From the IMG/VR virus record IMGVR_UViG_3300031673_005194, positions 1-44,315 of that record: DNA of 44,315 nt; one strand, written 5' to 3'. Positions 7,692-44,315 of the stretch are shown here, one piece after another. The notes below the pieces were generated by a model. It had not been told where the DNA came from, did not search any database, and worked only from the letters and a program-made list of their open reading frames with translations. The DNA comes from a virus. Every line of letters begins with the position of its first letter. Position 1 is the first letter of the stretch. A program made the position numbers and the translations under genes.

Positions 7692-7714
7692 TCGAGGAAA
7701 AGTGAGGTGTGAAA

Positions 7715-7948: not shown

Positions 7949-7954
7949 AAATTA

Positions 7955-8083: not shown

Positions 8084-8084
8084 A

Positions 8085-29248: not shown

Positions 29249-30475
29249 ATGCAAGTAGAATATGACCAAACAAAATTGCCTATCAAAATGTGGTTAGATA
29301 ATATCGAAGATGGGGCAATGAAGCAAGCAAGGAACTTAGCGAATTTACCTTTTGCCTTTAAGCACGTTGCATTAATGCCAGATGCGCATCAAGGATATGG
29401 AATGCCCATAGGTGGAGTATTGGCAACTGAAAATATTATTGTTCCGAATGCGGTTGGCGTGGATATCGGGTGCGGGATGGCTTTTGTTCAAACAAATATC
29501 CCTGCTCAGTTATTGCGTAATACCGAGACGGGGCAGGGGAATTTAGCTCAGTTAATCATCGGAAATATCATGAGAAATGTCCCGGTTGGATTTGCCCATC
29601 ACAGCGAAAAGCAGAAAAGTGAATGCCTTGATGAAGCTACTTACAAGGTAGAACATTTAAATGCGGGGTTAGAACTCATTCCTGAAATCGAAAAGGCTTA
29701 CTTATCAATGGGAACAATGGGGGGGAATAACCACTTCATCGAGCTCCAGGAAGATGATAATGGAATGGTTGCGATTATGCTCCATTCGGGATCCCGAAGC
29801 CTTGGGAAAAAGATTTGCGACTATTTCAATAAGTTGGCGGTAGAGATTAATTCTAAGTGGTTTTCGGTTATCCCCAAAGAATGGGAGCTGGCATTTTTAC
29901 CCGTAGATTCGCTAGAGGGTCAATCGTATATTGCTTGGATGAATTTAGCCCAAGAATTTGCCATGGAAAACAGGTCACAGATGATGGGGATTGCACTCAA
30001 CACACTCTTTGTTGCAGTTAATAAATATGCTGATGTGAATTTTTTGTTTGAACAATCTATGGCGGTAAACGTTCACCATAATTATGCAACGATTGAAAAT
30101 CACTTTGGCAAAAATGTATGGGTACATCGCAAGGGTGCAATACGTGCCCGAGAAGGAGAGCTAGGAATTATTCCGGGAGCTATGGGAAGTTCGTCTTACA
30201 TCGTTGAGGGATTAGGCAATAAAGATTCATTCATGTCCTGTTCGCATGGCGCAGGACGCAGGATGGGGCGCAAAGAAGCCGGAAGACAATTCACAACAGA
30301 GAATACATTAGCTGATTTAAAGGCAAAGAGAATTATCTTAGGCAAGCATAAAAAAGACAATGTTGCTGAGGAATGTTTGGGGGCCTACAAGGATATTGAT
30401 GAGGTTATTAATAATGAGTTGGATCTTATTAAGCCCATCAAAAAGTTAAAAACAATCGCCGTTATTAAGGGTTAG
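29249..30475 (+). CDS. rtcB: RtcB RNA ligase, 408 aa
   Basis: RtcB joins RNA ends with 2',3'-cyclic phosphate (or 3'-phosphate) to 5'-OH ends using GTP and Mn2+. Seen here: MPDAHQGYGMPIGGVLAT (about 43-60), VGVDIGCGM with Mn-binding D72 and C75, and CSHGAGRRMGRKEA carrying the His that is guanylylated. Further His ligands are in NNHFIELQED and VHHNYA. Length matches the short RtcB group. No archease gene is nearby. In a phage the likely job is repair of tRNAs cut by host anticodon nucleases. Strong GAGGGGGG site. Confidence 0.95.
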   Translation: MQVEYDQTKLPIKMWLDNIEDGAMKQARNLANLPFAFKHVALMPDAHQGYGMPIGGVLATENIIVPNAVGVDIGCGMAFVQTNIPAQLLRNTETGQGNLAQLIIGNIMRNVPVGFAHHSEKQKSECLDEATYKVEHLNAGLELIPEIEKAYLSMGTMGGNNHFIELQEDDNGMVAIMLHSGSRSLGKKICDYFNKLAVEINSKWFSVIPKEWELAFLPVDSLEGQSYIAWMNLAQEFAMENRSQMMGIALNTLFVAVNKYADVNFLFEQSMAVNVHHNYATIENHFGKNVWVHRKGAIRAREGELGIIPGAMGSSSYIVEGLGNKDSFMSCSHGAGRRMGRKEAGRQFTTENTLADLKAKRIILGKHKKDNVAEECLGAYKDIDEVINNELDLIKPIKKLKTIAVIKG

Positions 30476-30494: not shown

Positions 30495-31022
30495 ATGATA
30501 AAGGAAAGCCAGAATATACTTGAAGAACGACTGAAGCTGTACAAAAAGCATAAAGCCGAAGTTATAACTACTATGCAAAGGGTATCAGTATGGGAGGAAG
30601 CGTTGAAAAGTGGGGAACTATGGCTGTTTGAAAATAGTGTAAGCAGAATATTAGGTATGCCACACTCAATAACCACTACGTCTCCAACTGAACAAACAGT
30701 AAACCAAAGAGAAGTCACTGCCGAACTAGTGCAAGAATGGATTGACGAAGATAAATCCAAGATAAGATACAAAACGGTGGAGATTGAACAGATTGATGAA
30801 GCATTGAAGGCGTTGACTAGGGAGCAAAGGACGGTTATCGAGTCGAAGTATTTCGAAGCAGAGTCATGGCGAAGTATCGAGATACTTTTCAATGAACAAT
30901 ACTCGGTCGGTAGGATATATATTCAAACTGATGGGCTAAAGTTAATAAACAGAGAAGCGTTGGAGATACTTTGGCAAATACTTGGTCCACTGTTTCAGAG
31001 GTATCTGTATTTTAGGCGATAA
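30495..31022 (+). CDS. ArpU/RinA-type late transcription regulator, 175 aa
   Basis: The N-terminal half is a coiled helix (ILEERLKLYKKHKAEVITTM). The C-terminal half has EALKALTREQRTVIESKYFE and AESWRSIEILFNEQYSVGRI, resembling sigma-70 region 4-like HTH domains of ArpU/RinA regulators. These activate late genes of Firmicute phages and usually lie just before terS, as is the case here. The tandem repeats at 31038-31073 are its probable binding sites. Confidence 0.8.
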   Translation: MIKESQNILEERLKLYKKHKAEVITTMQRVSVWEEALKSGELWLFENSVSRILGMPHSITTTSPTEQTVNQREVTAELVQEWIDEDKSKIRYKTVEIEQIDEALKALTREQRTVIESKYFEAESWRSIEILFNEQYSVGRIYIQTDGLKLINREALEILWQILGPLFQRYLYFRR

Positions 31023-31431: not shown

Positions 31432-32376
31432 ATGAGCTTTGTAAAACTTTGTCCTGAACACCATGAAAGATGGAATAAGTTTTGTTTTAAAAACCATTGG
31501 TTCTGGCATACGACTTATTGGCTAGAATACCTGCAAAATAGTAAATTCGGAGTGGAATTCGAAGACCACTCATTTTTTCTTGAAAATAGTCGGCAAATAA
31601 CAAATATTGTCCCACTGATTCAGGAAGGTGATAAACTTATCTCTCCTGGATTTGATGAAGAGCGAGAAATTATAAGAGAAGTCAAAAGGATTGCGTTAGA
31701 AAACGGCATCAAACATATTCAGGTTGACTGTGATATTAAAAAATATTTGAATGTGCAGAATTATACCTGTGTTCTTGATTTGAACAATGTGCGACCAACT
31801 AAGGGGCATAAGTCAGCTATAAAGAAGGCTGAACAATTCCTCACATATCGAACATCAGAAGATATTGAGAAGTTCAGGAAATATTATATCAATGTTGCCA
31901 AGAAGGAGACTCGACCGAGAGTAACATTCGAACTACTAGGACAATGGATAAAACAAGGATTCGGAACATTGCTTGAAGCTTTGCTTGATGGTAAAACAGT
32001 TGGTTATATTTATGTCCTACATTGGAACAAATATGCTTATTATTTCATGTCATGCACACCTAGGCCATATAAGGAATATAATGTCACTCATTTTTTAATG
32101 AATAAGGCGTTTGAAATATTAAGGGATAAAGGGATCGTTACTTACGAAATGGGTGAGCAAGCGTTTAATTCGTTGCACCAACAACCTACCGAAAAAGAGA
32201 GATCCATTAGCAGATTCAAGCGAGGTTTTGGTGGTGAGATAGTTACAAAGCCATCTTCCGAATATTTCCTCGATCAAGAATATATGATTGATGTTTTTGC
32301 AAATAGAATTCATAAATATTGGGAGTGCGAAAATGAAAAAAATATTATTGATATTTCCAAAGTTGGAGTCCTATAA
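31432..32376 (+). CDS. FemAB/BioF2-like GNAT acyltransferase, 314 aa
   Basis: It has the double-GNAT plan of FemAB relatives: an N-terminal half with WFWHTTYWLEYLQNSKF and NIVPLI, and a C-terminal half with KGHKSAIKKAEQFL, FRKYYINVAKKETRPRVTFE, LLEALLDGKTVGYIYVLH and YEMGEQAFNS. FemAB proteins transfer aminoacyl or acyl groups to amines, including amino sugars in surface glycans. At the head of a nonulosonate-type cassette it may acylate the sugar. It overlaps the next gene by 44 bp. Substrate unknown. Confidence 0.7.
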   Translation: MSFVKLCPEHHERWNKFCFKNHWFWHTTYWLEYLQNSKFGVEFEDHSFFLENSRQITNIVPLIQEGDKLISPGFDEEREIIREVKRIALENGIKHIQVDCDIKKYLNVQNYTCVLDLNNVRPTKGHKSAIKKAEQFLTYRTSEDIEKFRKYYINVAKKETRPRVTFELLGQWIKQGFGTLLEALLDGKTVGYIYVLHWNKYAYYFMSCTPRPYKEYNVTHFLMNKAFEILRDKGIVTYEMGEQAFNSLHQQPTEKERSISRFKRGFGGEIVTKPSSEYFLDQEYMIDVFANRIHKYWECENEKNIIDISKVGVL

Positions 32377-33520
32377 AAATTTTCATTATATGCCCGTAAC
32401 GGCTTTATCCGTGGCCGCTGAATTATTAGCACAGGGGCATGAAGTTAAAATATGGGATCAGAGAATTGAAAGCACATTTAAAGATATTGTATGGCTACTT
32501 TCAGATGATGTTGAGGTAATGATTACGGCATTTACGGGCTATCAATTAAGTGAAGCATATCGAACTGCGAAAGAAATAAAAACTAATATTCGTGATAAAA
32601 AAATTATCATAGGTGGCCCCCATGCAACAGCCCTTCCGGTTCAAACACTAGAATCTCCATATATCGACGAAGTATTTGTAGGCGAAATGGATACTGGAAA
32701 ATATCCTTTGCCTTATTGGTTGATAGATATTACGAAGTACATTAATCTTGCTACTGAGCGATTTATCTACGTTTCGAGCTACGGCTGTGTAGGAGTTTGC
32801 TCATTCTGCAGCACCAAAAAACGGCGTAAACTTATGTTTCTATCTTTTGAGCGCATCCAAACAGATATTGATTATCTGATGTCACATTATTCATTCAAAG
32901 AAGCAGTCTTCTTTGATGCCACACTGTTCACTAAGCCTGAAAGGGCTTATTTTATTTCCCAATTGATGAGGAAACATAAACTTTCTTGGATTGCTGATTC
33001 ACGCGCTGATGAAATCATAAGAATGCCACAAGGGATGCTCAAGGATATCGCGGAAAGTGGATTGACGCAACTTACCATCGGCCTTGAATCGGGGTCAGAA
33101 TCGATAGCAAAGATCATGAAAAAGGGCAAAGATCATCTCGAAAATTACAAAAAATGTGCTGAGATAATGGCTATATATCCTCATGTTAAGATGGTATCCG
33201 GCGTGATCTTCGGATGCCCTGGCGAAACAATTGATAATCTGCTTGAGACAATTGAGTATATCAAGATGATTAAGGAGATTAATCAGAATTTCTTCATTTC
33301 TACTACCTTCTTCAGACCACTTCCAGATACTGAAATGGCTGATATGTGTAAGGAATATGGATACGTTGAGCCTCAATCGCTTGAAGAGTGGGCAGAATTG
33401 GGACAGCAGAACCACTATGAATACAACATCTTCATGGATGCCTCATGGATTCAGGATATTGATAATTACAAAAAAATCTACGATAACTTTGTCGCCGAAA
33501 ATGGCGATTTATTTACTTAA
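32333..33520 (+). CDS. B12-binding-domain radical SAM enzyme, 395 aa
   Basis: Residues 1-125 form a cobalamin-binding-like Rossmann domain (TALSVAAELLAQGHEVKIWD; KIIIGGPHATALPVQTL). The radical SAM core follows with YGCVGVCSFCSTKKRR (C-x3-C-x2-C), TIGLESGSESI and SGVIFGCPGET. Such enzymes methylate or rearrange unactivated carbons; some act on sugars or lipids. The canonical DxHxxG of B12 ligation is not visible, so cobalamin may not be bound by a His. ATG 32333 has GGGAG upstream inside the FemAB-like gene. Probably tailors the sugar, but the reaction is unknown. Confidence 0.8.
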   Translation: MKKILLIFPKLESYKNFHYMPVTALSVAAELLAQGHEVKIWDQRIESTFKDIVWLLSDDVEVMITAFTGYQLSEAYRTAKEIKTNIRDKKIIIGGPHATALPVQTLESPYIDEVFVGEMDTGKYPLPYWLIDITKYINLATERFIYVSSYGCVGVCSFCSTKKRRKLMFLSFERIQTDIDYLMSHYSFKEAVFFDATLFTKPERAYFISQLMRKHKLSWIADSRADEIIRMPQGMLKDIAESGLTQLTIGLESGSESIAKIMKKGKDHLENYKKCAEIMAIYPHVKMVSGVIFGCPGETIDNLLETIEYIKMIKEINQNFFISTTFFRPLPDTEMADMCKEYGYVEPQSLEEWAELGQQNHYEYNIFMDASWIQDIDNYKKIYDNFVAENGDLFT

Positions 33521-33535
33521 AGGGGCGAAAACAAA

Positions 33536-34381
33536 ATGATTAACGACAAGGTCATAAAGGCAATAATACCGGCGCATATGACATCATCACGATTGCCTGG
33601 TAAAGTTCTCTTGGATATAGATGGAAAAACGGTCCTACAAAGAGTTGTTGAACGCGTAAAATCCGCTAAGTTACTTGATGGTATTGTTATCGCTATCACA
33701 ACAAATGAGCAGGATGATTGCCTTGAAGAATTTTGCAAAACAATGGGTTATGAATATTATCGAGGTTCCGAGGATAACGTTCTGGATCGCATAATCAAGG
33801 GGGGGAAGGCAACAAATACGGATGTTGTGGTGGAACTCACGAGTGATTGCCCACTAATTTATTGGGAGCACATAGATTATCTGATTAATTTGCATATGCA
33901 AAGCTACCCAGATTTTGATATGACAACGAATATAGAGATACGTTCATTCCCTCGTGGCTTTGATCTGCGAGTTGTCAATATTGAGGCACTGGAAAGATCA
34001 TATAAGGAAATTGACAACGAATTGGATTTTGAGCATGCCCTTACTTGGATTTATCTTAATCCCAAGGGAAAATTGAATTATAAAGTGCAAAATTGGTCAG
34101 CCCCACTTGAGCAAAACCGGCCAGATATTGAAGTGACGTTAGACGAGATGGATGATTTATTATTAATCAGATTTATCTATGGCTTTGAAAACCAAGGTTA
34201 CAATCAGGAACTCACCTGTCAGCAGGTCATACACATAATCGATAGTTATCCTGACATGTACACCAAGGTAGCTAAGGTGACCAGGAAGGATTATTTTTTC
34301 GAATTGGCTGAGGCTTATGCCAATATGGAAAAAAAGAATCTGTCGTCAGAGAAGAAGCGAGGTAGACCAAGGAATAAATAA
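33536..34381 (+). CDS. SpsF/NeuA-like sugar nucleotidyltransferase with AT-hook tail, 281 aa
   Basis: AIIPAHMTSSRLPGKVLLDI is the nucleotide-binding start of the CMP-sugar/SpsF transferase family. TVLQRVVERVKSAK, VIAITTNEQDD, YYRGSEDNVLDRI and VVVELTSDCPLI follow as expected. The family activates sugars such as nonulosonic acids with CTP. A C-terminal extension ends KKRGRPRNK, an AT-hook-like DNA-binding motif, unusual for this family. AAGGGGCG precedes ATG 33536; a terminator follows. Confidence 0.82.
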   Translation: MINDKVIKAIIPAHMTSSRLPGKVLLDIDGKTVLQRVVERVKSAKLLDGIVIAITTNEQDDCLEEFCKTMGYEYYRGSEDNVLDRIIKGGKATNTDVVVELTSDCPLIYWEHIDYLINLHMQSYPDFDMTTNIEIRSFPRGFDLRVVNIEALERSYKEIDNELDFEHALTWIYLNPKGKLNYKVQNWSAPLEQNRPDIEVTLDEMDDLLLIRFIYGFENQGYNQELTCQQVIHIIDSYPDMYTKVAKVTRKDYFFELAEAYANMEKKNLSSEKKRGRPRNK

Positions 34382-34405
34382 TTTTAGGTTACTCGACGGA
34401 GTGTA

Positions 34406-34438
34406 AAAAGCGATCATACCTTGAATATGGTCGCTTTT
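34406..34438 (+). terminator. terminator between cytidylyltransferase and HNH gene
   Basis: AAAAGCGA (34406-34413) pairs with TCGCTTTT (34431-34438), and inner CATA/TATG pairs extend the stem. The short T tract ends the stem. It could work in both directions and isolates the HNH insert. Confidence 0.6.
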
Positions 34439-34471
34439 CCTATGCGCAAAATCTTTCAAGGGGGTTTTAAG

Positions 34472-34933
34472 ATGAAAACTAATAAAAAAATCGCATGGCA
34501 AGTCAATGAAAACGACTGTTGGATTTGTACAAGTCATGCGGGAAACGGACATGGATATCCACAATACCAAGTCAATGGTAAGCCAGGATACCTAAGTCGT
34601 TATATGTATGAAAACAAACATAGTAAAATTCCGGATGGAATGTGCGCTTGTCACAAGTGCGACACCCCAATGTGCATCAATCCAGATCATATATTTTTAG
34701 GGACTAGAGCAGACAATAATGCGGACAAGGTTAGCAAAAATAGGCAAGCATGCGAAATAGGAGAACTTAATTCTAATTCTAAACTCACAGAAAAACAAAT
34801 CATCGAAATAAGAAATATACATGACATGAAACATAGACAAATAGCCGAAATATATAATGTTTCAAAAAGTCATATAACCAATATTCGCAGAAACTATAAT
34901 TGGAGACATCTATTAGGGAGCGCGGCAAAATGA
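34472..34933 (+). CDS. HNH homing endonuclease with HTH tail, 153 aa
   Basis: The nuclease core is CACHKCDTPMCINPDHIFLG then TRADNNADK, a close match to the HNH_3 pattern (H-x2-C...C-x-NP-x-H-x4-GT-x2-DN-x2-D). The C-terminal part KLTEKQIIEIRNIHDMKHRQ then IAEIYNVSKSHITNIRRNYN is a helix-turn-helix of the NUMOD type. Free-standing homing genes of this kind spread between phages. It sits in the sugar cassette behind a terminator and overlaps the oxidoreductase ATG by 4 bp. AAGGGGG site upstream. Confidence 0.88.
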   Translation: MKTNKKIAWQVNENDCWICTSHAGNGHGYPQYQVNGKPGYLSRYMYENKHSKIPDGMCACHKCDTPMCINPDHIFLGTRADNNADKVSKNRQACEIGELNSNSKLTEKQIIEIRNIHDMKHRQIAEIYNVSKSHITNIRRNYNWRHLLGSAAK

Positions 34934-35739
34934 ATAAATATAAAACAATAATAATTGGACTTGGAGGACAAGGTTGCCTTGCTGATGGTCTCGGTAGTGG
35001 AAACGAAGACAAAATAATAAGTTTTGCTAATGCGATCATAAAGCATGATGGATTTGAATTGGTTGGTGGATGTGATATTGACCAAGACAAAAGAAATAAT
35101 GCTGAAAGATACTGGGGAATGAAAACATTTAATTCATTTATAGATTGTGATAAACATTTTGATGTGGCCGTTGTAGCAACGTCAGATAATTGTCATTTTG
35201 AAATATTAAAACAATTGGTTGATTACAGACCCAAATTAATTCTATGTGAAAAACCGATCTGCACCGATTTGAAACAGGCTCGGGAAATAGTTGAACTGTA
35301 TAAGGCTAAGGAAATACCAATTCTTGTTAATTACACAAGGAACTTTCTCCCCTATTATGAAGATTTGAAACAACGATACAACTCAGGAGAATTTGGAAAA
35401 ATAGTCTCTGCTAATGTCGTATTTAATCGTGGATGGAAACATACCGCTACGCATGCAATCAGTTTCCTTGAGTGGTTTTTTGATGGCCAATATAACGGTA
35501 AAATCATGGAATGTGAAACGGATTATCGCATTTGGCAGATGGATTTGTTTTTTGAAAAATATCATTGGCGAGAGGAACGCATTGGGGATATGCCGGTTTG
35601 GGATTATTACGATAAATCTCATTGGCATGTGGTTAACAATGCTTTTCAGTTTTTAGAGGGCAAAGAAGAGTTAAAATGTACAGGGGAACAGGCATTGCGG
35701 TCACTGGAGATTTGTTTTGAATTGATGGAAAATGGTTGA
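34930..35739 (+). CDS. Gfo/Idh/MocA-type sugar oxidoreductase, 269 aa
   Basis: It begins with a Rossmann nucleotide-binding fold (YKTIIIGLGGQGCLAD) and continues VVATSDNCHFEILKQLVDYR, LILCEKPICTDLKQAREIVE with the family's E-K-P motif, and ILVNYTRNFLPYYEDLKQRY. It probably oxidises or reduces a sugar nucleotide or sugar acid with NAD(P). The length is a little below the usual 330 aa, so the C-terminal sheet domain is short. ATG 34930 overlaps the HNH stop. Member of the sugar-modification cassette. Confidence 0.8.
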   Translation: MNKYKTIIIGLGGQGCLADGLGSGNEDKIISFANAIIKHDGFELVGGCDIDQDKRNNAERYWGMKTFNSFIDCDKHFDVAVVATSDNCHFEILKQLVDYRPKLILCEKPICTDLKQAREIVELYKAKEIPILVNYTRNFLPYYEDLKQRYNSGEFGKIVSANVVFNRGWKHTATHAISFLEWFFDGQYNGKIMECETDYRIWQMDLFFEKYHWREERIGDMPVWDYYDKSHWHVVNNAFQFLEGKEELKCTGEQALRSLEICFELMENG

Positions 35740-35757
35740 TAAAAACGAAAATAATTC

Positions 35758-35787
35758 AAGAGCCAGTTAAGGCTTCTTTTTATTTTG
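35758..35787 (+). terminator. weak terminator before aminotransferase
   Basis: A short AGCC/GGCT stem with a 6-nt loop (35761-35774) is followed by TCTTTTTATTTT. Small stem, good T tract. Confidence 0.35.
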
Positions 35788-35804
35788 TAATAGGAGTGAT
35801 AAAA

Positions 35805-36911
35805 ATGAGTATTGGACAAGAAGAAAAAGATGCAGTTATGAGAGTAATGGAACGTGGAGTTCTTTCGGGATATCAGGGAAACGCCTCAAGTTCATTCTAT
35901 GGTGGACCAGAGATTAAGCTATTAGAAGAAGAATGGTCAAGATATTTTAAAATTAATCATGCGATTGCCGCGAATTCTGCCACGAGTGGACTCTGGATGG
36001 CGTGTGCCGCCATTGGATTAACATTGGGCGATGAATGTATCGTATCGCCATATTCGATGACATGTTCAGCAAGTATGCCTTTGCATTTTGGAGCAATACC
36101 AGTCTTCGCCGACATAGAGAAAGACTACTATTGCCTTGACCCTAAATCGGTCGAGAAGGCCATCACAGAGCGTACCAGAACTATTATCATAGTTGACTTA
36201 TTTGGACAACCATACGCAGCAGATGAGATATATGGAATTGCAGAAAAATACAGTCTAAAATATGGACACAAGATATATGTCATTGAAGACGCTGCCCAGG
36301 CAATTGGGGCAAGGTTCTATGGAAAGTATGCTGGAACGCTTGGGGATATTGGTGTGTTCAGTCTAAATAGACACAAACACATCCAATGTGGTGAAGGTGG
36401 AATTGTCGTAACTGATAATGACGATTTGGCTATGAAGATACGATTGGCAATGAATCATTCTGAAGCGGTTGTAAGTGATATGTTAAATATGGGCAAATCT
36501 TTAGTAAATGAAGAAAGTCTATCACCATTAACAGGCTTAGTCGGCATGAATATGCGCATGCCCGAACTTTCAGCAGCCATAGCAAGGGAACAACTCAAAA
36601 AGCTATCCGGCATCCTTGAGAATATCAGAGAACATGCGAAGTATTTTCCGGTTAAAGTTAGGCCGGGGTGTGAAAGTGCTTATTATAGATATGCTTGGAA
36701 TGATTCAGACGGCAATGATCTGGCAAGGTATTTAAGGGGACACAACCTAACGCTACCAAGCAATGGATTTAACTTTAAGGATCACTACATCAAACCACTT
36801 CACCAAATGCCATTATTCAAGTCATTAGGCTATCCAGATGGACTTTGTCCAGTATGTCAAGAGGTCGAGGAGAATATAGTGCTTGCATGGCTAAAAGGAA
36901 GTGGAATGTGA
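35805..36911 (+). CDS. DegT/DnrJ/EryC1/StrS sugar aminotransferase, 368 aa
   Basis: This PLP enzyme transfers an amine to a 4-keto sugar nucleotide; PseC and LegC belong to this family. Seen here: ANSATSGLWMACAAIGLTLG, DECIVSPYSMTCSASMPLHF, TIIIVDLFGQPYA, VIEDAAQAIGARFYGKYAGT and FSLNRHKHIQCGEGGIVVT with the Schiff-base Lys in HKH. Slightly below the typical 370-390 aa. ATG 35805 follows TAGGAGTG; a longer frame upstream lacks a site and runs through the terminator. Its stop overlaps the terS ATG, so it is co-translated with terS. Confidence 0.9.
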   Translation: MSIGQEEKDAVMRVMERGVLSGYQGNASSSFYGGPEIKLLEEEWSRYFKINHAIAANSATSGLWMACAAIGLTLGDECIVSPYSMTCSASMPLHFGAIPVFADIEKDYYCLDPKSVEKAITERTRTIIIVDLFGQPYAADEIYGIAEKYSLKYGHKIYVIEDAAQAIGARFYGKYAGTLGDIGVFSLNRHKHIQCGEGGIVVTDNDDLAMKIRLAMNHSEAVVSDMLNMGKSLVNEESLSPLTGLVGMNMRMPELSAAIAREQLKKLSGILENIREHAKYFPVKVRPGCESAYYRYAWNDSDGNDLARYLRGHNLTLPSNGFNFKDHYIKPLHQMPLFKSLGYPDGLCPVCQEVEENIVLAWLKGSGM

Positions 36912-37363
36912 TGCCTTTTCCTAATTTAGATGGTAGACCTTTGAAGTTTCCTTCTCCAGAAGGTTTACAGTCCATAGTAAATGAATACTTCGCTTATTGT
37001 GACTCTCTTAACCCTGTAAATAATGAGGGAAGGGTTACTATTAATAAGCCTTATACTGTCACTGGGCTATGCGATTATATTGGGTTGCATAAAGATAATT
37101 GGCTAGAATATGAGAAGCGCGATGGATATACTTATATCGTTAAGAATGCCAAGCAGAAAGTAGAAACATTCACCGTTGAGATGGCTTCTATCAATAAGAC
37201 TAATCCGATCATGGCAATATTTAATCTGAAGAATAATTTTGGGTATTCGGACAAGATTGATGTTACAACTAATAACCAACCTGAACAATTGAACCCTACT
37301 GATATTAAGAAGATGTTGAATGATAAGGGTAGAGAGAGAATATTGGAATTAAATGGTAGTTAA
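36911..37363 (+). CDS. terS: terminase small subunit, 150 aa
   Basis: PFPNLDGRPLKFPSPEGLQS, IVNEYFAYCDSLN, YTVTGLCDYIGLHKDNWLEY and EKRDGYTYIVKNAKQK with FNLKNNFGYSDKID at the end of the core are the pattern of Firmicute-phage small terminases. These bind the packaging start site and recruit the large subunit. ATG 36911 overlaps the aminotransferase stop (TGATG). The large subunit, which normally follows directly, is absent: the next 400 bp hold no gene and the rest of the window no terL. Confidence 0.8.
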   Translation: MPFPNLDGRPLKFPSPEGLQSIVNEYFAYCDSLNPVNNEGRVTINKPYTVTGLCDYIGLHKDNWLEYEKRDGYTYIVKNAKQKVETFTVEMASINKTNPIMAIFNLKNNFGYSDKIDVTTNNQPEQLNPTDIKKMLNDKGRERILELNGS

Positions 37364-37767
37364 TAGTGCTGGGCGAGTTGTTTATGAGATTTGGTAAAGA
37401 AAACACTTCCACGACCCAGACAAAAAAGACCATGCAACAACTTGCAAAAATATACAACCCCCCATTCACTACAAGTAGTACATTTGTCGCCAAAATGTAC
37501 ACGTGTCATGGACATTTACAGTGATAATACCAATGCATAAACATCTTACAACACAAGAATCCTGAACACCGCATGGCGCTAAGACTAAGCGATGCAGTAT
37601 AATGACATTGTGAAATATCCTACTTTACGTAATGTTAGTTATAGGACGCAGTTACTTTTGGACTATGCATAAATATACATGCGGGGAGTGCTTTGGCCTG
37701 TTTATTTGGCGAGGTAGCGGATTAAGCCACAAAAAAATATCTAATAAAACAAAAGGAGTGATTTAAT
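37364..37767. other. gene-poor stretch after terS with an 8-bp palindrome
   Basis: There is no convincing gene. A 52-codon frame (about 37367-37523) lacks a ribosome site. GTACATTT (37478-37485) and AAATGTAC (37493-37500) form a perfect hairpin with loop GTCGCCA, followed by ACACGTGT and a further GGACATTT. This could be a packaging-related site, a transposon-end remnant or a recombination junction. The rest shows nothing I can name. Confidence 0.45.
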
Positions 37768-37959
37768 TTGTATACTCCACAATTTAAAAAGTGTTCCATA
37801 CTCAAAGATGTAGATATAACCTATTCTGATTCATCGACTCCAAGAGAGAAACGAATATCTTATATGGAAAATATGGGATATCATAAATTAACTCCTACCG
37901 AAAGAGAAGAAAGATTAATTAACGCTATAAGATATTTACAAATGGTTATGGTAGGATGA
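37768..37959 (+). CDS. small hypothetical protein, 63 aa
   Basis: TTG 37768 has AAGGAG 9 bp upstream. MYTPQFKKCSILKDVDITYS continues STPREKRISYMENMGYHKLT, then a helical end. No motif. Its stop overlaps the ATG of the next gene by 4 bp. Function unknown. Confidence 0.5.
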   Translation: MYTPQFKKCSILKDVDITYSDSSTPREKRISYMENMGYHKLTPTEREERLINAIRYLQMVMVG

Positions 37960-38102
37960 ACACCATCCTCCTAAAACTAATTATAATGGCTATCGTCCTC
38001 ATCCTACTCTGGTCGTGGGTAGGCATAGAAAAGCTAATAGAATGGCGAGACCTAAAAGAACTAGAACGCGAATTATCTAAGCATCGGAAAAGACCTCTTT
38101 AA
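37956..38102 (+). CDS. small single-pass membrane protein, 48 aa
   Basis: The ATG overlaps the previous stop. Residues 3-22 (TILLKLIIMAIVLILLWSWV) form one membrane helix, followed by a charged tail (EKLIEWRDLKELERELSKHR). A terminator follows within 20 bp. The architecture suits an accessory membrane peptide; it could, but need not, be holin-like. Confidence 0.55.
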   Translation: MNTILLKLIIMAIVLILLWSWVGIEKLIEWRDLKELERELSKHRKRPL

Positions 38103-38120
38103 AAAAATTCTGCTAAAAAC

Positions 38121-38152
38121 AAAAAGGCCCTTTACGAGAGTGAGGGGTTTTT
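38121..38152 (+). terminator. imperfect terminator after membrane peptide
   Basis: AAAAAGGCCCT and AGGGGTTTTT form an imperfect stem flanked by A and T runs directly after the operon end. Confidence 0.55.
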
Positions 38153-38184
38153 GTGTTATGTGCGTTTCTCCATCGAAGACTTGA

Positions 38185-38240
38185 AGGGTTTACCCTGAAA
38201 AGACCGTAGATGGGCACGTAAGAATGACGTTAATACGTGT
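38185..38240 (+). promoter_or_regulatory. structured leader upstream of wHTH gene
   Basis: Two small stems lie in tandem: AGGGT/ACCCT (38185-38196) and CACGTA/TACGTG (38215-38220 with 38234-38239). Together with the direct repeats at 38298-38349 they suggest post-transcriptional or replication control. No gene is seen in 38153-38367. Confidence 0.35.
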
Positions 38241-38297
38241 CTGACTAGCTAAAACCCCGAGAGTGTTGATTTATAAGGGTTTATTACCATTTTTGCT

Positions 38298-38349
38298 TGG
38301 CAATCCAATGACATGGTTTTAGTGATATCTGGCAATCCAATGACATGGT
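38298..38349 (+). repeat. 20-bp direct repeat (iteron/operator pair)
   Basis: TGGCAATCCAATGACATGGT occurs exactly at 38298-38317 and 38330-38349, 32 bp apart (about three helical turns). The second copy ends 2 bp before the ribosome site of the wHTH gene. Autoregulatory operator or replication iterons are the two readings. Confidence 0.7.
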
Positions 38350-38367
38350 AGAAAGGAAGTGATTATA

Positions 38368-38940
38368 TTGTCTTTACGGCAAAAGGTCACAACATTTGAT
38401 AATAAAACCGGATTCATTCTTGATGAAAAAGAAAGAGGGCTTTACAACCCGTTTGATCCTGAAAAGGGATATAACTTCAAGTACAAAAGTTTTAGCATTA
38501 AGTCTTATCTTGATATTCCTTTACCTAATGTATTTTCCGATTCCGAGATAGGGAAGCTGTTTCGATTATCTCGACATATATATGCAAATTCAAATATGCT
38601 AGGAAAAAGGGTTAATGCTTATATCAAACCTTTGACCCAGGAGGGAATTATTAAAATACTTGGACTAAAGGATAGACAGGGCAGGGCGTTGCTGAAGAAG
38701 ATTATAGATAACAACGTAATAAGAAAACTCGAGTATTTTGAACAAGGTAAACACTTTGTTCAATTTTATTTTAACCCCATATATTTCTTTTCCGGAACAT
38801 ACCTGAACCTCAACTTGTATTTGATATTTCAAGATGAATTAAGTAAGCACTTACCACCGTGGGTAATTCTTAAATTTTTAGAACAGGCTGAAACTGAAAA
38901 AACCACAACAGATGTAAACGATACAAAGTGCCAATCTTAG
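38368..38940 (+). CDS. winged-helix protein, RepL/plasmid-replication-like, 190 aa
   Basis: TTG 38368 has AAAGGAAG at good distance; a GTG at 38359 is too close. SDSEIGKLFRLSRHIYANSN, IKPLTQEGIIKILGLKDRQG and RALLKKIIDNNVIRKLEYFE form a winged-helix DNA-binding domain. HFVQFYFNPIYFFSGTYLNL resembles the N-P-x-Y/F wing-end of Firmicute RepL-type initiators and related phage regulators. With an exact direct repeat upstream, it is either an autoregulator or a replication initiator. Similarity is by eye and moderate. Confidence 0.6.
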   Translation: MSLRQKVTTFDNKTGFILDEKERGLYNPFDPEKGYNFKYKSFSIKSYLDIPLPNVFSDSEIGKLFRLSRHIYANSNMLGKRVNAYIKPLTQEGIIKILGLKDRQGRALLKKIIDNNVIRKLEYFEQGKHFVQFYFNPIYFFSGTYLNLNLYLIFQDELSKHLPPWVILKFLEQAETEKTTTDVNDTKCQS

Positions 38941-38994
38941 CACAAGGGGCGGTTATTACCGTATACCACATTCGCTCCGTGGATTCCTTGTGCT
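38939..38994 (+). promoter_or_regulatory. three-way-junction-like structure after wHTH gene
   Basis: A 9-bp perfect outer stem AGCACAAGG/CCTTGTGCT (38939-38947 with 38986-38994) encloses two hairpins: CGGT-TATT-ACCG (38950-38961) and CCAC/GTGG (38966-38969 with 38979-38982). The stop codon of the upstream gene lies at its foot. No T run follows, so it is not a simple terminator. Confidence 0.6.
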
Positions 38995-39052
38995 ATTTAA
39001 TATGAAGCGGGATATATAATTATGGCAAAGGGAAGTGTAATAGGAGGAGTAG

Positions 39053-39331
39053 ATGAAAGATTTACAAGAATATGAGAATTTTATTCAAAATAAGTTTGGT
39101 TATTGTTTCTACTCTTTAGAAGAACATTGCCCCGTGATATATAATCTTTATGTTCACCCTCAGTATAGGAAATGCGGATATTCAAGAATACTTTTACAAT
39201 ATGTTATTAATGAGATTAAGGAAAATGGTTATACGGGGAAAATAAAGATAAAAGCAGAGCCACAAGAAAATAGCATAAGTTCAGATAAACTTATTAAGTA
39301 TTACAAAAGCATGGGACTTAGAACAATCTAA
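39053..39331 (+). CDS. small GNAT acetyltransferase, 92 aa
   Basis: ATG 39053 follows AGGAGGAG. YNLYVHPQYRKCGYSRILLQ is the acetyl-CoA pyrophosphate-binding motif A of the GNAT fold (V-x-P-x-Y-R-x-x-G-x), then IKIKAEPQENSISSDKLIKY and YKSMGL. At 92 aa it is only the core half of the fold, so it may be a minimal or truncated enzyme. It lies at the head of the right part of the sugar cassette. Acceptor unknown. Confidence 0.7.
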   Translation: MKDLQEYENFIQNKFGYCFYSLEEHCPVIYNLYVHPQYRKCGYSRILLQYVINEIKENGYTGKIKIKAEPQENSISSDKLIKYYKSMGLRTI

Positions 39332-39382
39332 TCATTCACACAATATATCTGGATATAAAAACAAATATTAAGGAGCGATGAA

Positions 39383-39916
39383 ATGAAATTAAAGGCCCTA
39401 TCTTTATTGGATGTCGAACACGTCCGACGATGGAGAAATTCACAGATTGAAATGCTGCGAACATCATTCCCATTAACAACAGAAATGCAAGCAGACTTTT
39501 ACAAAAACGTAGTCAGTAATCGTCAATCCAATGCGAGATACTGGGGAATAAGAGAAAAAGATATTCTCATCGGAATGGCGGGCCTAGAAAATATCCAATG
39601 GGAAAATAGACTTGGTGAAATAAGTTTATTGTTAACACCTGGTGCCATGGATGAACATGGAACTAAATCATTGAGCCTATTGTTACATGAAGGTTTTATG
39701 AACATGAATCTAGAGAACATCTTCACAGAAGTTTACGAATGCAGTCCTCATCTACAATTCTGGATGAACATAGTTGTAAAATATGATACTTGTTTTGCCC
39801 GTCTTCCTAATCGTAAATATTACAACGGTGAATACTGGTCTAGTTTCTACATCAATTTTAATAAGGAGGATTATCTTGAAAATATTATTTCTGAGCCCAC
39901 ACAAACACTTAATTGA
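39383..39916 (+). CDS. GNAT acetyltransferase, PseH-like, 177 aa
   Basis: The N-terminus LKALSLLDVEHVRRWRNSQI with FPLTTEMQADFYKNVVS is typical of RimJ/RimL-type and PseH-type amino-sugar N-acetyltransferases. Motif A is GEISLLLTPGAMDEHGTKSL and the C-terminus has RKYYNGEYWSSFYI. Within a set of dehydratase, aminotransferase and NeuB-like genes it most likely acetylates the 4-amine of the UDP-sugar, as PseH does. It overlaps the next gene by 41 bp. Confidence 0.75.
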   Translation: MKLKALSLLDVEHVRRWRNSQIEMLRTSFPLTTEMQADFYKNVVSNRQSNARYWGIREKDILIGMAGLENIQWENRLGEISLLLTPGAMDEHGTKSLSLLLHEGFMNMNLENIFTEVYECSPHLQFWMNIVVKYDTCFARLPNRKYYNGEYWSSFYINFNKEDYLENIISEPTQTLN

Positions 39917-40430
39917 GTTTCTACAATCGAATGGTGATGAGGTTGTTAATTCGTTCGAACTGGTAACAGAGGAATTGCTGGATGGCGTTGATTTTATCAT
40001 AAGTTATGCCTACCGGCGCAAGATTGAGAAGGATATTCTGGATAGATTTAAAGGTCGAGCAATCAATCTGCATGTAGGATACTTGCCTTATAATCGCGGG
40101 GCAGATCCTAACCTATGGAGTTTCCTGGAAGACACTCCAAAGGGCGTAACGATTCATCACTTGGATGGAAGCATTGATACCGGAGATATTATCGCCCAAG
40201 AGAAAATAACTTATGATCTTGAAGCCGATACCTTGCGAACTACTCATAAGCGCCTATCTGAAACGATAGAGGCGCTTTTTTGTCGGTTATGGCTGGACAT
40301 CAGGGCTGGAATGATGGATTCAATTCCTCAGTTGACCTATCACCGAGTAGCAAATAAGGAACGATATGCAAGTTTATGTAGACTTGGATGGGATACGCCG
40401 ATTAAGGATGTTATTGGTAAAGCAAAATAA
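39876..40430 (+). CDS. formyltransferase-family protein, 184 aa
   Basis: TTG 39876 follows AAGGAGG. The upstream in-frame extension overlaps the GNAT gene and is not conserved-looking. INLHVGYLPYNRGADPNLWS, VTIHHLDGSIDTGDIIAQEK carry the Asn, His and Asp of the N10-formyl-THF transferase active site. It probably formylates an amino group of the sugar; N-formyl nonulosonates and N-formyl amino sugars are known. Shorter than methionyl-tRNA formyltransferase and lacking its C-terminal domain. Confidence 0.85.
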   Translation: MKILFLSPHKHLIEFLQSNGDEVVNSFELVTEELLDGVDFIISYAYRRKIEKDILDRFKGRAINLHVGYLPYNRGADPNLWSFLEDTPKGVTIHHLDGSIDTGDIIAQEKITYDLEADTLRTTHKRLSETIEALFCRLWLDIRAGMMDSIPQLTYHRVANKERYASLCRLGWDTPIKDVIGKAK

Positions 40431-40451
40431 ATTAGAGGGAGAGATAAAAAT

Positions 40452-40967
40452 ATGATTGATAAAAGTGAATTTGTGGATATACCTGGATATGAAGGATTGT
40501 ATGCCATAAATAGAAACGGTGATATCTGGAGTTATTATTCAGGTAAAATCTTAAAACAATGGTTAACATTAGGATATCCATATATCACCTTGTGTAAAGA
40601 AACCAAAAAACGAAAACGTCGTGTTGCGAGATTGGTAGCATTAACATTTATACCAAATCCCAAAAATAAACCAGAAGTTAATCATAAAAATGGTATCAAA
40701 AAAGATAACTATATTGATAACTTAGAATGGGTAACTGGATCCGAAAATAAGAAACATGCTTATAGAACAGGTTTGCGTACTGGCGATTCAGCAATAAAAG
40801 CCATGAATATGGCAATAAGGAAATTGTCTTTTAATGATGCGAATAAAATAAAAAAATTATACGAAACGGGAGATTATTCTTATCGTGAACTTGGAGAAAT
40901 GTTTAATGTGTCGCTACATGCAATATATAGAGTAGTTAAAAACAAAGCATATAAGGAGGCTGTATAA
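40452..40967 (+). CDS. NUMOD4/HNH homing endonuclease, 171 aa
   Basis: The N-terminal NUMOD4 motif is DIPGYEGLYAINRNGDIWS. The HNH core is RLVALTFIPNPKNKPEVNHK then NGIKKDNYIDNLEWVT. The C-terminus KLSFNDANKIKKLYETGDYS with YRELGEMFNVSLHAIYRV is an HTH. Typical free-standing phage homing gene. Its TAA overlaps the ATG of the NeuB-like gene (TAATG), so it is stitched into the operon without breaking it. Confidence 0.9.
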   Translation: MIDKSEFVDIPGYEGLYAINRNGDIWSYYSGKILKQWLTLGYPYITLCKETKKRKRRVARLVALTFIPNPKNKPEVNHKNGIKKDNYIDNLEWVTGSENKKHAYRTGLRTGDSAIKAMNMAIRKLSFNDANKIKKLYETGDYSYRELGEMFNVSLHAIYRVVKNKAYKEAV

Positions 40968-41617
40968 TGAGCCAGATAATCCTCGATTTCGGTTCTGGAA
41001 ACAGTTGCCTTAATGATAAAAAAATAGTCAAAAAAATGTATGATGAACTTAAGAAAGTTGATACTGGAAAACACACGATAATCTGCAAATGGCAGTTATT
41101 TTTAGAAGCAGGAAACAACATCCCATTAGACAGGGATGTTTTTGATTTTGCCTATGAATATGGCAATGAATTAGGATATCGAGTTACATCTTCTGTTTTT
41201 GATAAAGATTCATTAGAATTTCTGCTCTTATATGATGTTCCGATGATCAAAATTGCCAATAATAGAGAATTAGATTGGTTAATTGGGGAAGTACCACGCA
41301 AGGTTCCTGTCTATGTCAGTTGCGGGAGTGCTGAACAAATTGGGAACTGGCGCGAGTCCGTTAGATATGGAACCATCAAGCCCTTGCTGTGTGTTTCGAA
41401 TTATCCTGCCTATATGGAAGATTACGAAAAAATAAAAGAATTTGGCTTATATGTTAAACATGATAAGTATGGCATTTCAGACCACACAACTAACTTTGGT
41501 TTATGGTATCGTTATCAACCTGAAATCGTTGAGTGGCATTACGGTCTTCCGGATTCCACCGGTCTTGATGCAGGACCATTCATGAGAATGCCAGTTATGT
41601 TGAAGGAGGTACTTTAA
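40967..41617 (+). CDS. NeuB-like nonulosonate synthase, truncated form, 216 aa
   Basis: This family condenses a 6-deoxy-hexosamine (or ManNAc) with phosphoenolpyruvate to a nine-carbon acid. Segments TIICKWQLFLEAG, GYRVTSSVFDKDSLEFLLLY, DVPMIKIANNRELDW, LLCVSNYPAYMEDYEKIKEF, YGISDHTTN and VEWHYGLPDSTGLDAGPF follow the NeuB/PseI TIM barrel in order. The usual length is about 340 aa; part of the barrel and the whole C-terminal SAF (antifreeze-like) domain are missing. Activity is thus uncertain; it may be a minimal enzyme or need a partner. ATG overlaps the HNH stop. Confidence 0.78.
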   Translation: MSQIILDFGSGNSCLNDKKIVKKMYDELKKVDTGKHTIICKWQLFLEAGNNIPLDRDVFDFAYEYGNELGYRVTSSVFDKDSLEFLLLYDVPMIKIANNRELDWLIGEVPRKVPVYVSCGSAEQIGNWRESVRYGTIKPLLCVSNYPAYMEDYEKIKEFGLYVKHDKYGISDHTTNFGLWYRYQPEIVEWHYGLPDSTGLDAGPFMRMPVMLKEVL

Positions 41618-41618
41618 C

Positions 41619-42473
41619 ATGAATTGGGAAAATCAAACTGTCCTTATAACTGGACTTACTGGATCCTTCGGAACTGCCTTTGCTAAATATCTACTAGCCA
41701 AGAATCCTAAGAAACTCATCTGCTTTTCTCGTGATTGGCTAAAACAGCAGAACCTAAGAAATGAATTAGGAAATCCCCCCAATATGCGCTGGTTTATCGG
41801 CGACGTGAGAGACAAGGACAGACTTATGAAGGCGTTCAGGGGAGTGGATATAGTTCTGCATGCATCGGCTATCAAATGTCTTCCTACGTGTCAATACAAC
41901 CCATTTGAAGCATTACAGACAAATGTTATTGGGACGCAAAACGTCATCGACGCGTGTATAGAGCGCGGAGTTAAGAAATGCCTTTTCATTTCAACAGATA
42001 AGGCTGTGGCTCCTGCAAATACCTATGGCGCAACAAAAGCACTTGCAGAACATTTGTGGCTGAATGCCAATATGACTGCCGCAACGGATGACATTCGCTT
42101 TTCAGTTTGCAGGTATGGTAATGTTTGCGGTTCAAGTGGTTCAGTTGTGCCTGTATTTAAAAAGTTAATTGCTGAAGGTGCTGAATACTTGCCTATTACA
42201 GACGAGCGGATGACCCGTTTTTGGATGGAGATGGATAAAGTCCTTCATTTCGTTGAGGATAGCATAGAAAGCATGCAGGGAAATGAATTATTCATCCCGA
42301 GGCTACCGAGTGTACTCATTACTGATCTTTGCAAAGCCTTGGATATGCCATACAAAGTTATTGGCATAAGGGTTGGAGAAAAGCTACACGAATCACTTGA
42401 TGCTGATTATTCATCGGATAATAACGTGTTTCTGACAGTTGATGAAATTAGAGAAACAATAAAAAATATTTAG
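41619..42473 (+). CDS. PseB-like UDP-GlcNAc 4,6-dehydratase, 284 aa
   Basis: An extended SDR/polysaccharide-biosynthesis protein: NAD-binding GLTGSFG (12-18), VLHASAIKCLPTCQYNPFEA, NVIGTQNVIDACIERGVKKC, FISTDKAVAPANTYGATKAL with the YxxxK pair, and CRYGNVCGSSGSVVPVFKKL. These are the marks of PseB/FlaA1-type inverting dehydratases that open pseudaminic acid synthesis. It is slightly short (PseB about 330 aa). AAGGAGG precedes ATG 41619, 1 bp after the NeuB-like stop. Confidence 0.85.
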   Translation: MNWENQTVLITGLTGSFGTAFAKYLLAKNPKKLICFSRDWLKQQNLRNELGNPPNMRWFIGDVRDKDRLMKAFRGVDIVLHASAIKCLPTCQYNPFEALQTNVIGTQNVIDACIERGVKKCLFISTDKAVAPANTYGATKALAEHLWLNANMTAATDDIRFSVCRYGNVCGSSGSVVPVFKKLIAEGAEYLPITDERMTRFWMEMDKVLHFVEDSIESMQGNELFIPRLPSVLITDLCKALDMPYKVIGIRVGEKLHESLDADYSSDNNVFLTVDEIRETIKNI

Positions 42474-42484
42474 GGGTGATAAAA

Positions 42485-42595
42485 ATGTACTATTTTCAAT
42501 TTGGAATTATCATGCTGTTGTTGACAGGGATTTTTATTTATCAGGGATTAATTCTGCAAAGTATATTATCTCTTAAAGATAGGAAACGGCGATAA
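42485..42595 (+). CDS. small single-pass membrane peptide, 36 aa
   Basis: ATG 42485 follows AGGGGTG. MYYFQFGIIMLLLTGIFIYQ is one membrane helix, ending in KDRKRR. It stands between the dehydratase and an unknown gene. Function unknown. Confidence 0.45.
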   Translation: MYYFQFGIIMLLLTGIFIYQGLILQSILSLKDRKRR

Positions 42596-42596
42596 A

Positions 42597-42875
42597 ATGA
42601 AAAATAGAAGAATAGGGAAAGTATATATTTCGGCACCCCTAATGCATGAAGTGGATATTGTTAAAATGTTACAGGTTACAAGTAAATTAGTAGTTATAAG
42701 ATGCGAATATTTATATCATAAAGATTTGTTTGAATATATTGCCTTTTGCCAAGAATTTGATGAGATTGAACAAGGATGCGAGCCGCCTACATATTTGGTG
42801 GAAATAAAAAAAGAGATAACAGATGAAGGCATGCCTCCGGAGATAGTCGAGATAAAATTTATTAGACAAGATTAG
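42597..42875 (+). CDS. hypothetical protein, 92 aa
   Basis: The ATG lies 1 bp after the previous stop. GKVYISAPLMHEVDIVKMLQ and YHKDLFEYIAFCQEFDEIEQ suggest a small alpha/beta fold; the end is strand-rich (PTYLVEIKKEI, PEIVEIKFIR). No family recognised. Position directly before the Maf gene ties it to the cassette. Confidence 0.55.
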   Translation: MKNRRIGKVYISAPLMHEVDIVKMLQVTSKLVVIRCEYLYHKDLFEYIAFCQEFDEIEQGCEPPTYLVEIKKEITDEGMPPEIVEIKFIRQD

Positions 42876-42886
42876 GGAGCGATAAA

Positions 42887-44315
42887 ATGAAACTTGATCC
42901 TACCATCTATAATAATAATTATGCTGCGCTCATGGCCAGATATCCTGATCTTGCCCTAACGTTAAGCATGGTTAAAATCGAAAATTATAAACTTGCCAAG
43001 ATGGAAAATTGCTTACCGAATGTGATTCTTCCTGATGGTCAATTTTATTATTTGGGAAACATGATCCAATACTGTGAGGAACAATTTAAGGGATTTGAAT
43101 TATCTAATGTTAAGATCCCTGTCTTCTGTGGTTTTGGCTTGGGCTATGAAGTTATCTACTGGCTTCAATTCAAAGCCAAAGAACATCAAACCCAAGGTGT
43201 TATCATCTTCGAAAAAGATATTGAACTATTCCAATGCGCCATGAATGTAACTGACTTAACCCAACTAATCAATAATCCCGGTATTCACTTCTTCATTGGC
43301 ATACCTCTCGATCAACTATACACAAAACTTCGCGAACATTACCAAAAAGAAATGCAGCAAATGCTAATGTGTGGTGTAACTCAGCCATTATTTCTCTATC
43401 CAGCAATGAAGGTTGGCAAAGACTACTACATTCAGGTCATGCAAATACTTTTCGAAGCCATGTACCACAATATCCAAAATTTCGGCAACTGTCCAGAAGA
43501 TAGCCTAATCGGGCTTGAGAATATGCTGGATAACGTGACTGAGATTGTGAATAATCCAGGTATCAATTTACTTTATGATAAATTTAAGGGAAAACCCGCA
43601 GTAATTGTGGCCGCCGGTCCCAGTCTTAAGAAGAATATGCATCTACTGAAGGGTTTAGAAGATAAAGCATTAATTATCAGCGTCGATGCATCATTTAAGT
43701 ATCTTATGAAAAACGGCATCAAGCCACACATGGTTACAAGTCTTGAACGTGAACATGAAGTACAACAATTCTTTGATAACTTTGATCCGGATGAAGTCAA
43801 AGATGTTTACATGACCGCCTGCCCGGTATTATTTAACCATGTCTATAAATCTTACACAGGTCCGCAAATCATCGTTTATCGAAACTTCGACCACTTCAAA
43901 TGGTTGGAGATTGACCGAGGTATTTTGGACATAAAACTTTCATCCTCTAATATGGCTTTCAAAATTGCGGAGGCCTTGGGATGTGACCCGATTATCCTTG
44001 TTGGGCAGGATTTAGCCTATGGGGAGGATGGGGAAACCCACGTTACAGAAGTTCCCTTTTCCAGTGAGGGAGAAGGAATATTTTTTGTAAAGGGTAATGT
44101 TGTCGATCAGGTTAAAACAAATACCGGTTGGTATAACTTCCTTAGAGCTTACGAGGTTGACATTGCGCAGTATAAGGGAAGTGTGATCAATTGTACAGAG
44201 GGTGGCGCATTCATCCCAGGATGCCATGTTGCACCATTTGCTGAAACGATTGAAAGGTTTATGCATGTTCCATTTGACCCGCTTGAAATCATCAAGGAAA
44301 ACTTATCGCAATTCA
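42887..44315 (+). CDS. Maf-type (MptE-like, DUF115) glycosyltransferase, N-terminal 476 codons, 3'-truncated
   Basis: The frame opens at ATG 42887 (GGGAGCG upstream) and runs off the window. An N-terminal domain (about 1-220: YYLGNMIQYCEEQF, FCGFGLGYEVIYWLQF) is followed by the MptE-like central domain: GKPAVIVAAGPSLKKNMHLL, IISVDASFKYLMKNGIKPHM, VTSLERE, SSNMAFKIAEALGCDPIILV and GQDLAYGEDGETH. Motility-associated Maf proteins of this type move CMP-nonulosonic acids onto Ser/Thr of flagellin. At least 476 aa are present; typical length is about 600-700. It completes the sugar cassette with a transfer step. Confidence 0.88.
   Translation, partial: MKLDPTIYNNNYAALMARYPDLALTLSMVKIENYKLAKMENCLPNVILPDGQFYYLGNMIQYCEEQFKGFELSNVKIPVFCGFGLGYEVIYWLQFKAKEHQTQGVIIFEKDIELFQCAMNVTDLTQLINNPGIHFFIGIPLDQLYTKLREHYQKEMQQMLMCGVTQPLFLYPAMKVGKDYYIQVMQILFEAMYHNIQNFGNCPEDSLIGLENMLDNVTEIVNNPGINLLYDKFKGKPAVIVAAGPSLKKNMHLLKGLEDKALIISVDASFKYLMKNGIKPHMVTSLEREHEVQQFFDNFDPDEVKDVYMTACPVLFNHVYKSYTGPQIIVYRNFDHFKWLEIDRGILDIKLSSSNMAFKIAEALGCDPIILVGQDLAYGEDGETHVTEVPFSSEGEGIFFVKGNVVDQVKTNTGWYNFLRAYEVDIAQYKGSVINCTEGGAFIPGCHVAPFAETIERFMHVPFDPLEIIKENLSQF

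Follow-up and report, generated by a model that had tools for sequence, protein, structure and literature searches.

The stretch of DNA analyzed here, called the window throughout, is a linear 44,315-bp virus record (IMGVR_UViG_3300031673_005194 in IMG/VR) of an uncultured tailed phage, and from position 31432 to its end it holds a block of genes, all on one strand, for enzymes of the kind that make and transfer nonulosonic acids (Table 1). The block is phage-borne and lies in the late structural module. Its most distinctive member is a minimal relative of the nonulosonate synthases NeuB and PseI, here called NeuBs, which belongs to a distinct and nearly phage-exclusive family lacking the C-terminal SAF (antifreeze-like) domain. 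Profile searches of each protein, by domain and NCBIfam matches, placed all the enzyme classes named in an earlier sequence-only reading where that reading had put them, and domain matches and conservation rule out chance open reading frames (ORFs) as the source of the block. The description of the cassette given there holds for its contents, and is to be amended by two HNH genes (34421-34933 and 40452-40967) and by the truncation of the Maf gene at the contig end.

Placement in the phage genome and recurrence of the core

Two sister contigs (L002 and L003) carry the radical SAM, cytidylyltransferase, Gfo/Idh, DegT, terS, GNAT, formyltransferase, NeuB relative, PseB and Maf genes in the order of the window, with 31-75% protein identity to it, and continue directly after Maf into terL and portal. 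Beyond these, one of them (L003) goes on through genes for head protease, major head protein, major tail protein and tape measure, in the layout of an HK97-type siphovirus; the tail module of this sister phage also holds an acyltransferase-3 (OafA-like) gene (L068:5887-6990, minus strand). In a third contig (L018), PseB, formyltransferase and Maf are about 96% identical to those of the window. Because the sister contigs share this gene order, the block is more than a product of chance or misassembly. Specifically, the scenario in which the right part would be host chromosome joined by misassembly is ruled out by contigs that keep the order from FemAB and radical SAM through terS, NeuB, PseB and Maf to terL and portal. 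The earlier proposals that the block is phage-borne and that it lies among late-type genes around terS were borne out, with terS inside the block itself. In an alignment of 14 Maf sequences, complete copies of the window's type measure about 609-615 amino acids (aa), while the window copy stops at residue 476. Both the window and a sister contig (IMGVR_UViG_3300031578_003491, the contig end of L021/L024) end inside Maf, which hints at a conserved stretch where assemblies break off.

This core is shared with further phage lineages, the greater part of which lack Maf, a pattern that the sequence-only reading had missed. Across 45 loci, NeuBs (45) is accompanied by a PseH-like GNAT (42), PseB (41), an SpsF-like cytidylyltransferase (29) and DegT (27). 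The protein distances of the core genes correlate pairwise (r 0.57-0.92, with 0 of 499 permutations as high), which indicates that they tend to be inherited together. We sorted the 45 loci into four classes of our own, class IV being the remainder. Class I, to which the window belongs, closes with Maf-terL-portal. Class II is flanked by the MuF minor head gene on one side and a scaffold gene on the other, and adds genes for GT29-like, capsule-synthesis-like, IspD, short-chain dehydrogenase/reductase (SDR) and terminal glycosyltransferase-like proteins. Class III runs through terL, GNAT, NeuBs, PseB, an aldo-keto reductase, a cytidylyltransferase, a class III aminotransferase and a short Maf. 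The phages that bear the cassette have at least four terL types, and in 36 of the 45 loci a terS, terL, portal, MuF or scaffold gene stands within 10 kb of NeuBs, in every instance on the NeuBs strand (81/81); the loci with no packaging or head gene in that range are either short or hold gene families outside the present clustering. Of the loci that lack Maf, most have other glycosyltransferase-like genes.

Two features of the other lineages deserve mention in their own right. In class II (L007, L012 and other loci), the IspD-like, SDR and GT-B-like genes beside the core presumably resemble a set for cytidine diphosphate (CDP)-ribitol synthesis and polyol-phosphate transfer, an idea for which the transferase has weak Pfam support; the 376-aa terminal protein of class II was rejected as a CDP-glycerol transferase, as its Pfam matches were all sub-threshold and it had no PDB match. 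Separately, in one locus (L030:7939-9081), a CTP_transf_3 cytidylyltransferase ORF runs in frame into a sigma-70 region 4/late-regulator-like domain, a possible fusion.

Table 1. Genes of the sugar block and the regulator-like gene directly upstream of it (window coordinates, strand in brackets)
Position	Product	Matches and remarks
30495..31022 (+)	Late-regulator-like protein	phrog_36 (transcriptional regulator); sigma-70 region 4, weak match; immediately precedes block
31432..32376 (+)	FemAB/GNAT-fold acyltransferase	PF13480 E 6e-6; TIGR04421 E 3e-14; homologs in L003, L026
32333..33520 (+)	B12-binding radical SAM protein	PF04055 E 5e-17; PF02310 E 2e-10; ORF opens at 32288, likely ATG at 32333
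33536..34381 (+)	SpsF-like cytidylyltransferase (CTP_transf_3), candidate CMP-nonulosonate synthetase	PF02348 E 2e-22; PDB 6oew E 1.5e-26
34421..34933 (+)	HNH homing-type endonuclease, presumed intruder	PF13392 E 2e-7
34930..35739 (+)	Gfo/Idh/MocA oxidoreductase	PF01408 E 9e-14; start checked
35805..36911 (+)	DegT aminotransferase	PF01041 E 1e-68; best NCBIfam match PseC, below cut-off
36911..37363 (+)	terS (terminase small subunit), inside cassette	PF16677 E 1e-21; phrog_606; ORF opens at 36845
38359..38940 (+)	Phage protein, no assigned function	phrog_31110; conserved in L002, L024, L028, L044
39053..39331 (+)	Small GNAT acetyltransferase	PF00583 E 3e-8
39383..39916 (+)	PseH-like GNAT	PF13420 E 3e-11; TIGR03585 E 1.5e-4 only; conserved in 42/45 loci
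39876..40430 (+)	PseJ-type sugar N-formyltransferase	PF00551 E 2e-15; TTG start at 39876 behind AAGGAGG
40452..40967 (+)	NUMOD4-HNH homing endonuclease, presumed intruder	PF13392; PF07463
40967..41617 (+)	NeuBs, minimal SAF-less nonulosonate-synthase relative	PF03102 E 8e-10
41619..42473 (+)	PseB-like UDP-GlcNAc 4,6-dehydratase	PF02719 E 4e-83; TIGR03589 350 bits vs cut-off 407.75
42597..42875 (+)	Small conserved protein, no assigned function	86% identical in L018
42887..44315 (+)	Maf glycosyltransferase, N-terminal 476 residues (gene runs off contig end)	PF01973 E 1e-43; PF20157

NeuBs, a synthase relative without the SAF domain

The gene that had been read as a NeuB-like synthase does encode a NeuB relative, in a 216-aa form that ends after the barrel and has short loops; that it represents a separate family had escaped the earlier reading. 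An AlphaFold2 model built from 39 sequences (pLDDT 96, pTM 0.92) shows eight strands in a TIM barrel, and the top 12 PDB folds retrieved with it by Foldseek are all NeuB, SpsE or PseI. Residues K41, Q43, K95, S171-D172-H173-T174, E189 and H191 are invariant in the 39 sequences, and we take them, by homology, to match the phosphoenolpyruvate (PEP) and metal ligands of NeuB/PseI. NeuBs scores far below the NCBIfam PseI/NeuB cut-offs (36.7 bits vs 340 and 23.3 vs 400), and SAF (PF08666) is absent from 39 of the 40 phage records tested, the exception (L032) having it on a separate full-length NeuB. That record holds both the full-length NeuB (3942-4964; PF03102 E 3e-46) and NeuBs (7617-8255), with a PAPS-reductase-like gene between them. 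A NeuB disrupted by HNH genes was rejected as an explanation, given that the short form occurs in 45 loci and the barrel is complete.

The family was found on 42 viral contigs, some near-identical, and, among 11.3 million bacterial and archaeal genome contigs, on two, both from metagenome-assembled genomes (MAGs), in a scan seeded with short patterns, which may overlook distant members. A Eubacteriales MAG holding a sister contig (L022) is the only one of the 396 genomes of its order to contain it. None of the 50,697 phage records in INPHARED carries NeuBs, and no relative was found among the predicted viral structures of BFVD at E <= 0.001. In the family tree the window groups with L024 and L025 (100/98), and the classes mix to some extent, for example L030 with L003.

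Predicted sugar, acceptor and alternative explanations

We propose, with a probability of roughly 0.5, that the block is a late-expressed phage cassette that makes a cytidine monophosphate (CMP)-activated, (7-N-formyl) pseudaminic-type nonulosonate and links it to Ser/Thr residues of proteins present in the infected cell, with those of the virion as the likeliest acceptors. On this proposal, uridine diphosphate (UDP)-GlcNAc would be dehydrated by PseB and then aminated by DegT; the aminated sugar would be N-formylated by the PseJ-type enzyme or N-acylated by the PseH-like GNAT; NeuBs would condense the free sugar with PEP; and the SpsF-like enzyme would add CMP before Maf transfers the sugar to Ser/Thr. 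The Gfo/Idh, radical SAM (found in five class I loci) and FemAB proteins would modify the sugar further. The proposal draws support from the co-occurrence and co-divergence of the core, the PseJ-like formyltransferase, the fold of NeuBs as NeuB/PseI and that of Maf as the Magnetospirillum enzyme 5mu5. The placement also supports it, as the block begins after a late-type regulator, contains terS and, in class I, ends at terL-portal.

The enzymes of the block are of the nonulosonate type, and formylation would probably proceed through the PseJ-type enzyme, in line with the capacity predicted earlier: the formyltransferase matches PseJ (PDB 6ci2/6ci4) at E 4e-58 over residues 4-177, the whole domain. 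A pseudaminic-type sugar with formyl or acetyl at C7 is the best prediction, because this PseJ match in class I is joined by matches in the other classes. The PseBs of classes II and III reach 435 and 450 bits, above the TIGR03589 cut-off of 407.75, with a further one just missing it at 406; class II DegT matches PseC over its full length at 321-336 bits (TIGR03588 cut-off 423.5); and one class IV cytidylyltransferase matches PseF, below cut-off.

Several observations weigh against this proposal. The window's own PseB (350 vs 407.75 bits), DegT (168 vs 423.5 bits, TIGR03588) and PseH-like GNAT (21.8 vs 93.1 bits, TIGR03585) all fall under their family cut-offs. The DegT step in class I is less sure, because DegT adjoins Gfo/Idh and matches PseC more weakly, and could act elsewhere. 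NeuBs lacks SAF, and the sugar side of its reaction may differ. A promoter scan of the block gave matches at chance level. Maf is known for acting on flagellin, and two flagellin genes are present in the Eubacteriales MAG. Finally, without the hydrolase PseG the pathway in the cassette is incomplete.

The absence of a visible PseG had been noted from the window and extends to its relatives, with no match to TIGR03590 over cut-off in any of 43 phage records. The weak matches seen map to the C-terminal portion of a glycosyltransferase-like protein from class II, and a NeuC-type hydrolase in place of PseG was rejected, as PF02350 gave sub-cut-off matches only, in four class II records. How UDP would be removed, either by an unrecognized host activity or because NeuBs works differently, is the sharpest question posed by the case. 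One answer, already offered by the sequence-only reading, is that the host supplies PseG, so that ordinary CMP-pseudaminic acid synthesis would have one step outsourced, as phages often do; a PseG-like domain (E 8e-19) in a Spirochaetes MAG holding a class II contig is consistent with it. This now looks weak and we regard it as unlikely: beyond the phage records, no PseG was detected in the Eubacteriales MAG (a genome whose completeness is not given), PseG clears its cut-off in just 2 of the order's 396 genomes, and a host that bears PseG would usually own the remaining genes already. The other answer, to which we give a similarly low probability, is a nonulosonate system of the phages' own, in which NeuBs would work without PseG by taking a UDP-linked sugar or another acceptor into its open, SAF-free active site, and would supply CMP-sugar to lineage-specific transferases (Maf, GT29-like and other glycosyltransferase-like proteins) that decorate virion proteins.

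For the acceptor, virion proteins stand at about even odds and are favored over flagellin, the main rival but a doubtful one, because the cassette lies in the late module, its core occurs also in phages without Maf and the phage records tested contain no flagellin. Indeed, flagellin was found in 0 of 16 phage records, which rules out a phage-borne flagellin as acceptor for these. Mycobacteriophages, which glycosylate their virions (Freeman et al. 2023, as cited in PMC12619734), offer a precedent. Alternatively, the phage Maf might glycosylate host flagellin during infection or lysogeny and so block flagellotropic phages or alter motility, a possible but rather doubtful outcome. Characterized Mafs do act on flagellin (PMC13317340; PMC4065374), and the one Maf of the flagellin-bearing Eubacteriales MAG is on the phage contig. 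However, the block stands among late packaging genes, seemingly unlike the typical position of lysogenic-conversion genes (a moron would be expected to have its own promoter and to lie outside the late operon; here the block is inside the late module, and the promoter scan, at chance level, is uninformative), and the same donor-making core is also found in phages without Maf. By fold, the complete sister copies of Maf resemble the Magnetospirillum enzyme (5mu5, E 6e-23), and both the N-terminal and the MptE-like domain (PF20157 and PF01973) are present. Class III Maf lacks the N-terminal domain, and the C-terminal ~130 residues of the phage Maf, the part with which characterized Mafs bind flagellin, match no Pfam family.

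Modification of a host envelope glycan (capsule or teichoic acid) leading to superinfection exclusion is improbable: phage-encoded enzymes do convert capsular pseudaminic acid in Acinetobacter (epaA/B and O-acetyltransferases; PMC12053666, PMC6586298) and GT29-like, capsule-synthesis-like and IspD/SDR genes are part of class II cassettes, but the Maf that closes class I is a glycosyltransferase for proteins, and the location is in the late module in several lineages. Least probable is that NeuBs is no nonulosonate synthase but a PEP-using or PEP-binding barrel with another role, as the loss of SAF and the additional full-length NeuB of L032 might suggest, in view of its invariant PEP/metal-type residues, its closest folds and its constant coupling to PseB, PseH and CTP-transferases.

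Comparison with known systems, and neighboring genes

The Pse pathway, Maf, PseJ, the tailoring of pseudaminic acid by Acinetobacter prophages (PMC12053666) and, as cited in PMC12619734, virion glycosylation by mycobacteriophages are already known. The open-access literature searched yielded no nonulosonate-making phage cassette, no SAF-less synthase family and no Maf between terS and terL. Among the nearest known systems is the CMP-pseudaminic acid pathway PseB-C-H-G-I-F with Maf, known from Campylobacter, Helicobacter and Aeromonas and from flagellar islands of Clostridium (PMC13317340) and Geobacillus (PMC5109656), which shares PseB, PseC-like and PseH-like steps, a NeuB/PseI relative, a cytidylyltransferase, Maf and a PseJ-type formyltransferase. 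In contrast, the phage version sits in a late module, has no PseG and no flagellin gene and relies on a SAF-less minimal synthase. The Bacillus sps pathway for legionaminic acid (PMC7439481) shares SpsC/D/E/F-like steps, including the SpsF-type cytidylyltransferase, but requires SpsG, which has no counterpart in the cassette, and its known target is the spore crust. With NeuB, PseI and SpsE (PDB 1xuu, 8h2c, 1vli), NeuBs has the TIM barrel and PEP/metal-site residues in common, whereas its short length and loops, loss of SAF and almost exclusive occurrence in phages set it apart. The Acinetobacter prophage genes epaA/epaB and O-acetyltransferases (PMC12053666, PMC6586298) likewise act on pseudaminic acid, but they tailor a capsule sugar made by the host, whereas here the phage itself encodes a transferase for proteins along with most of the synthetic steps. 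The mycobacteriophages that decorate their own particles (Freeman et al. 2023, as cited in PMC12619734) are the parallel proposed here, although the citing text describes no nonulosonate cassette for them.

By the canonical pathway the cassette falls short, having no PseG, and by the standard of NeuB so does NeuBs, having no SAF, yet each probably works like its known counterpart, and these phages may coat their own particles with nonulosonate by a route of their own. If so, tailed phages would build an almost complete pathway for a sialic-acid-like sugar and attach it to their particles. The resulting coat would be negatively charged and could influence adsorption, recognition by antibodies and phage-phage competition. 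NeuBs would further provide a minimal synthase for asking what SAF does and whether PseG is dispensable, and a sequence marker for cassette-bearing phages, a group that the INPHARED search did not recover.

Outside the block, the left part of the window carries integrase, repressor-like, replication and recombination genes (RecT, DnaD, Holliday-junction resolvase), which are followed rightwards by RtcB, the late-regulator-like gene and the sugar block. The RtcB RNA ligase gene (29249-30475) lies just 5' of the late-regulator-like gene, and a GIY-YIG homing-type endonuclease gene (27569-28045) is also near the block. Within the block, a terminator-like hairpin (13 pairs, then a T-run) stands at 38123-38152, between terS and the phrog_31110 gene. 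Farther left, an AAA+ ATPase-like gene (18766-19664) is apparently split into overlapping ORFs (18766-19311 and 19308-19664), through a frameshift, a sequencing error or the presence of two genes. The early region includes queuine tRNA-ribosyltransferase-like and PAPS-reductase-like genes (11818-12495 and 12587-13834), and at 9268-10038 a protein rich in short repeats of the VYGDA/VSGNA type is encoded where overlapping frames are open on both strands.

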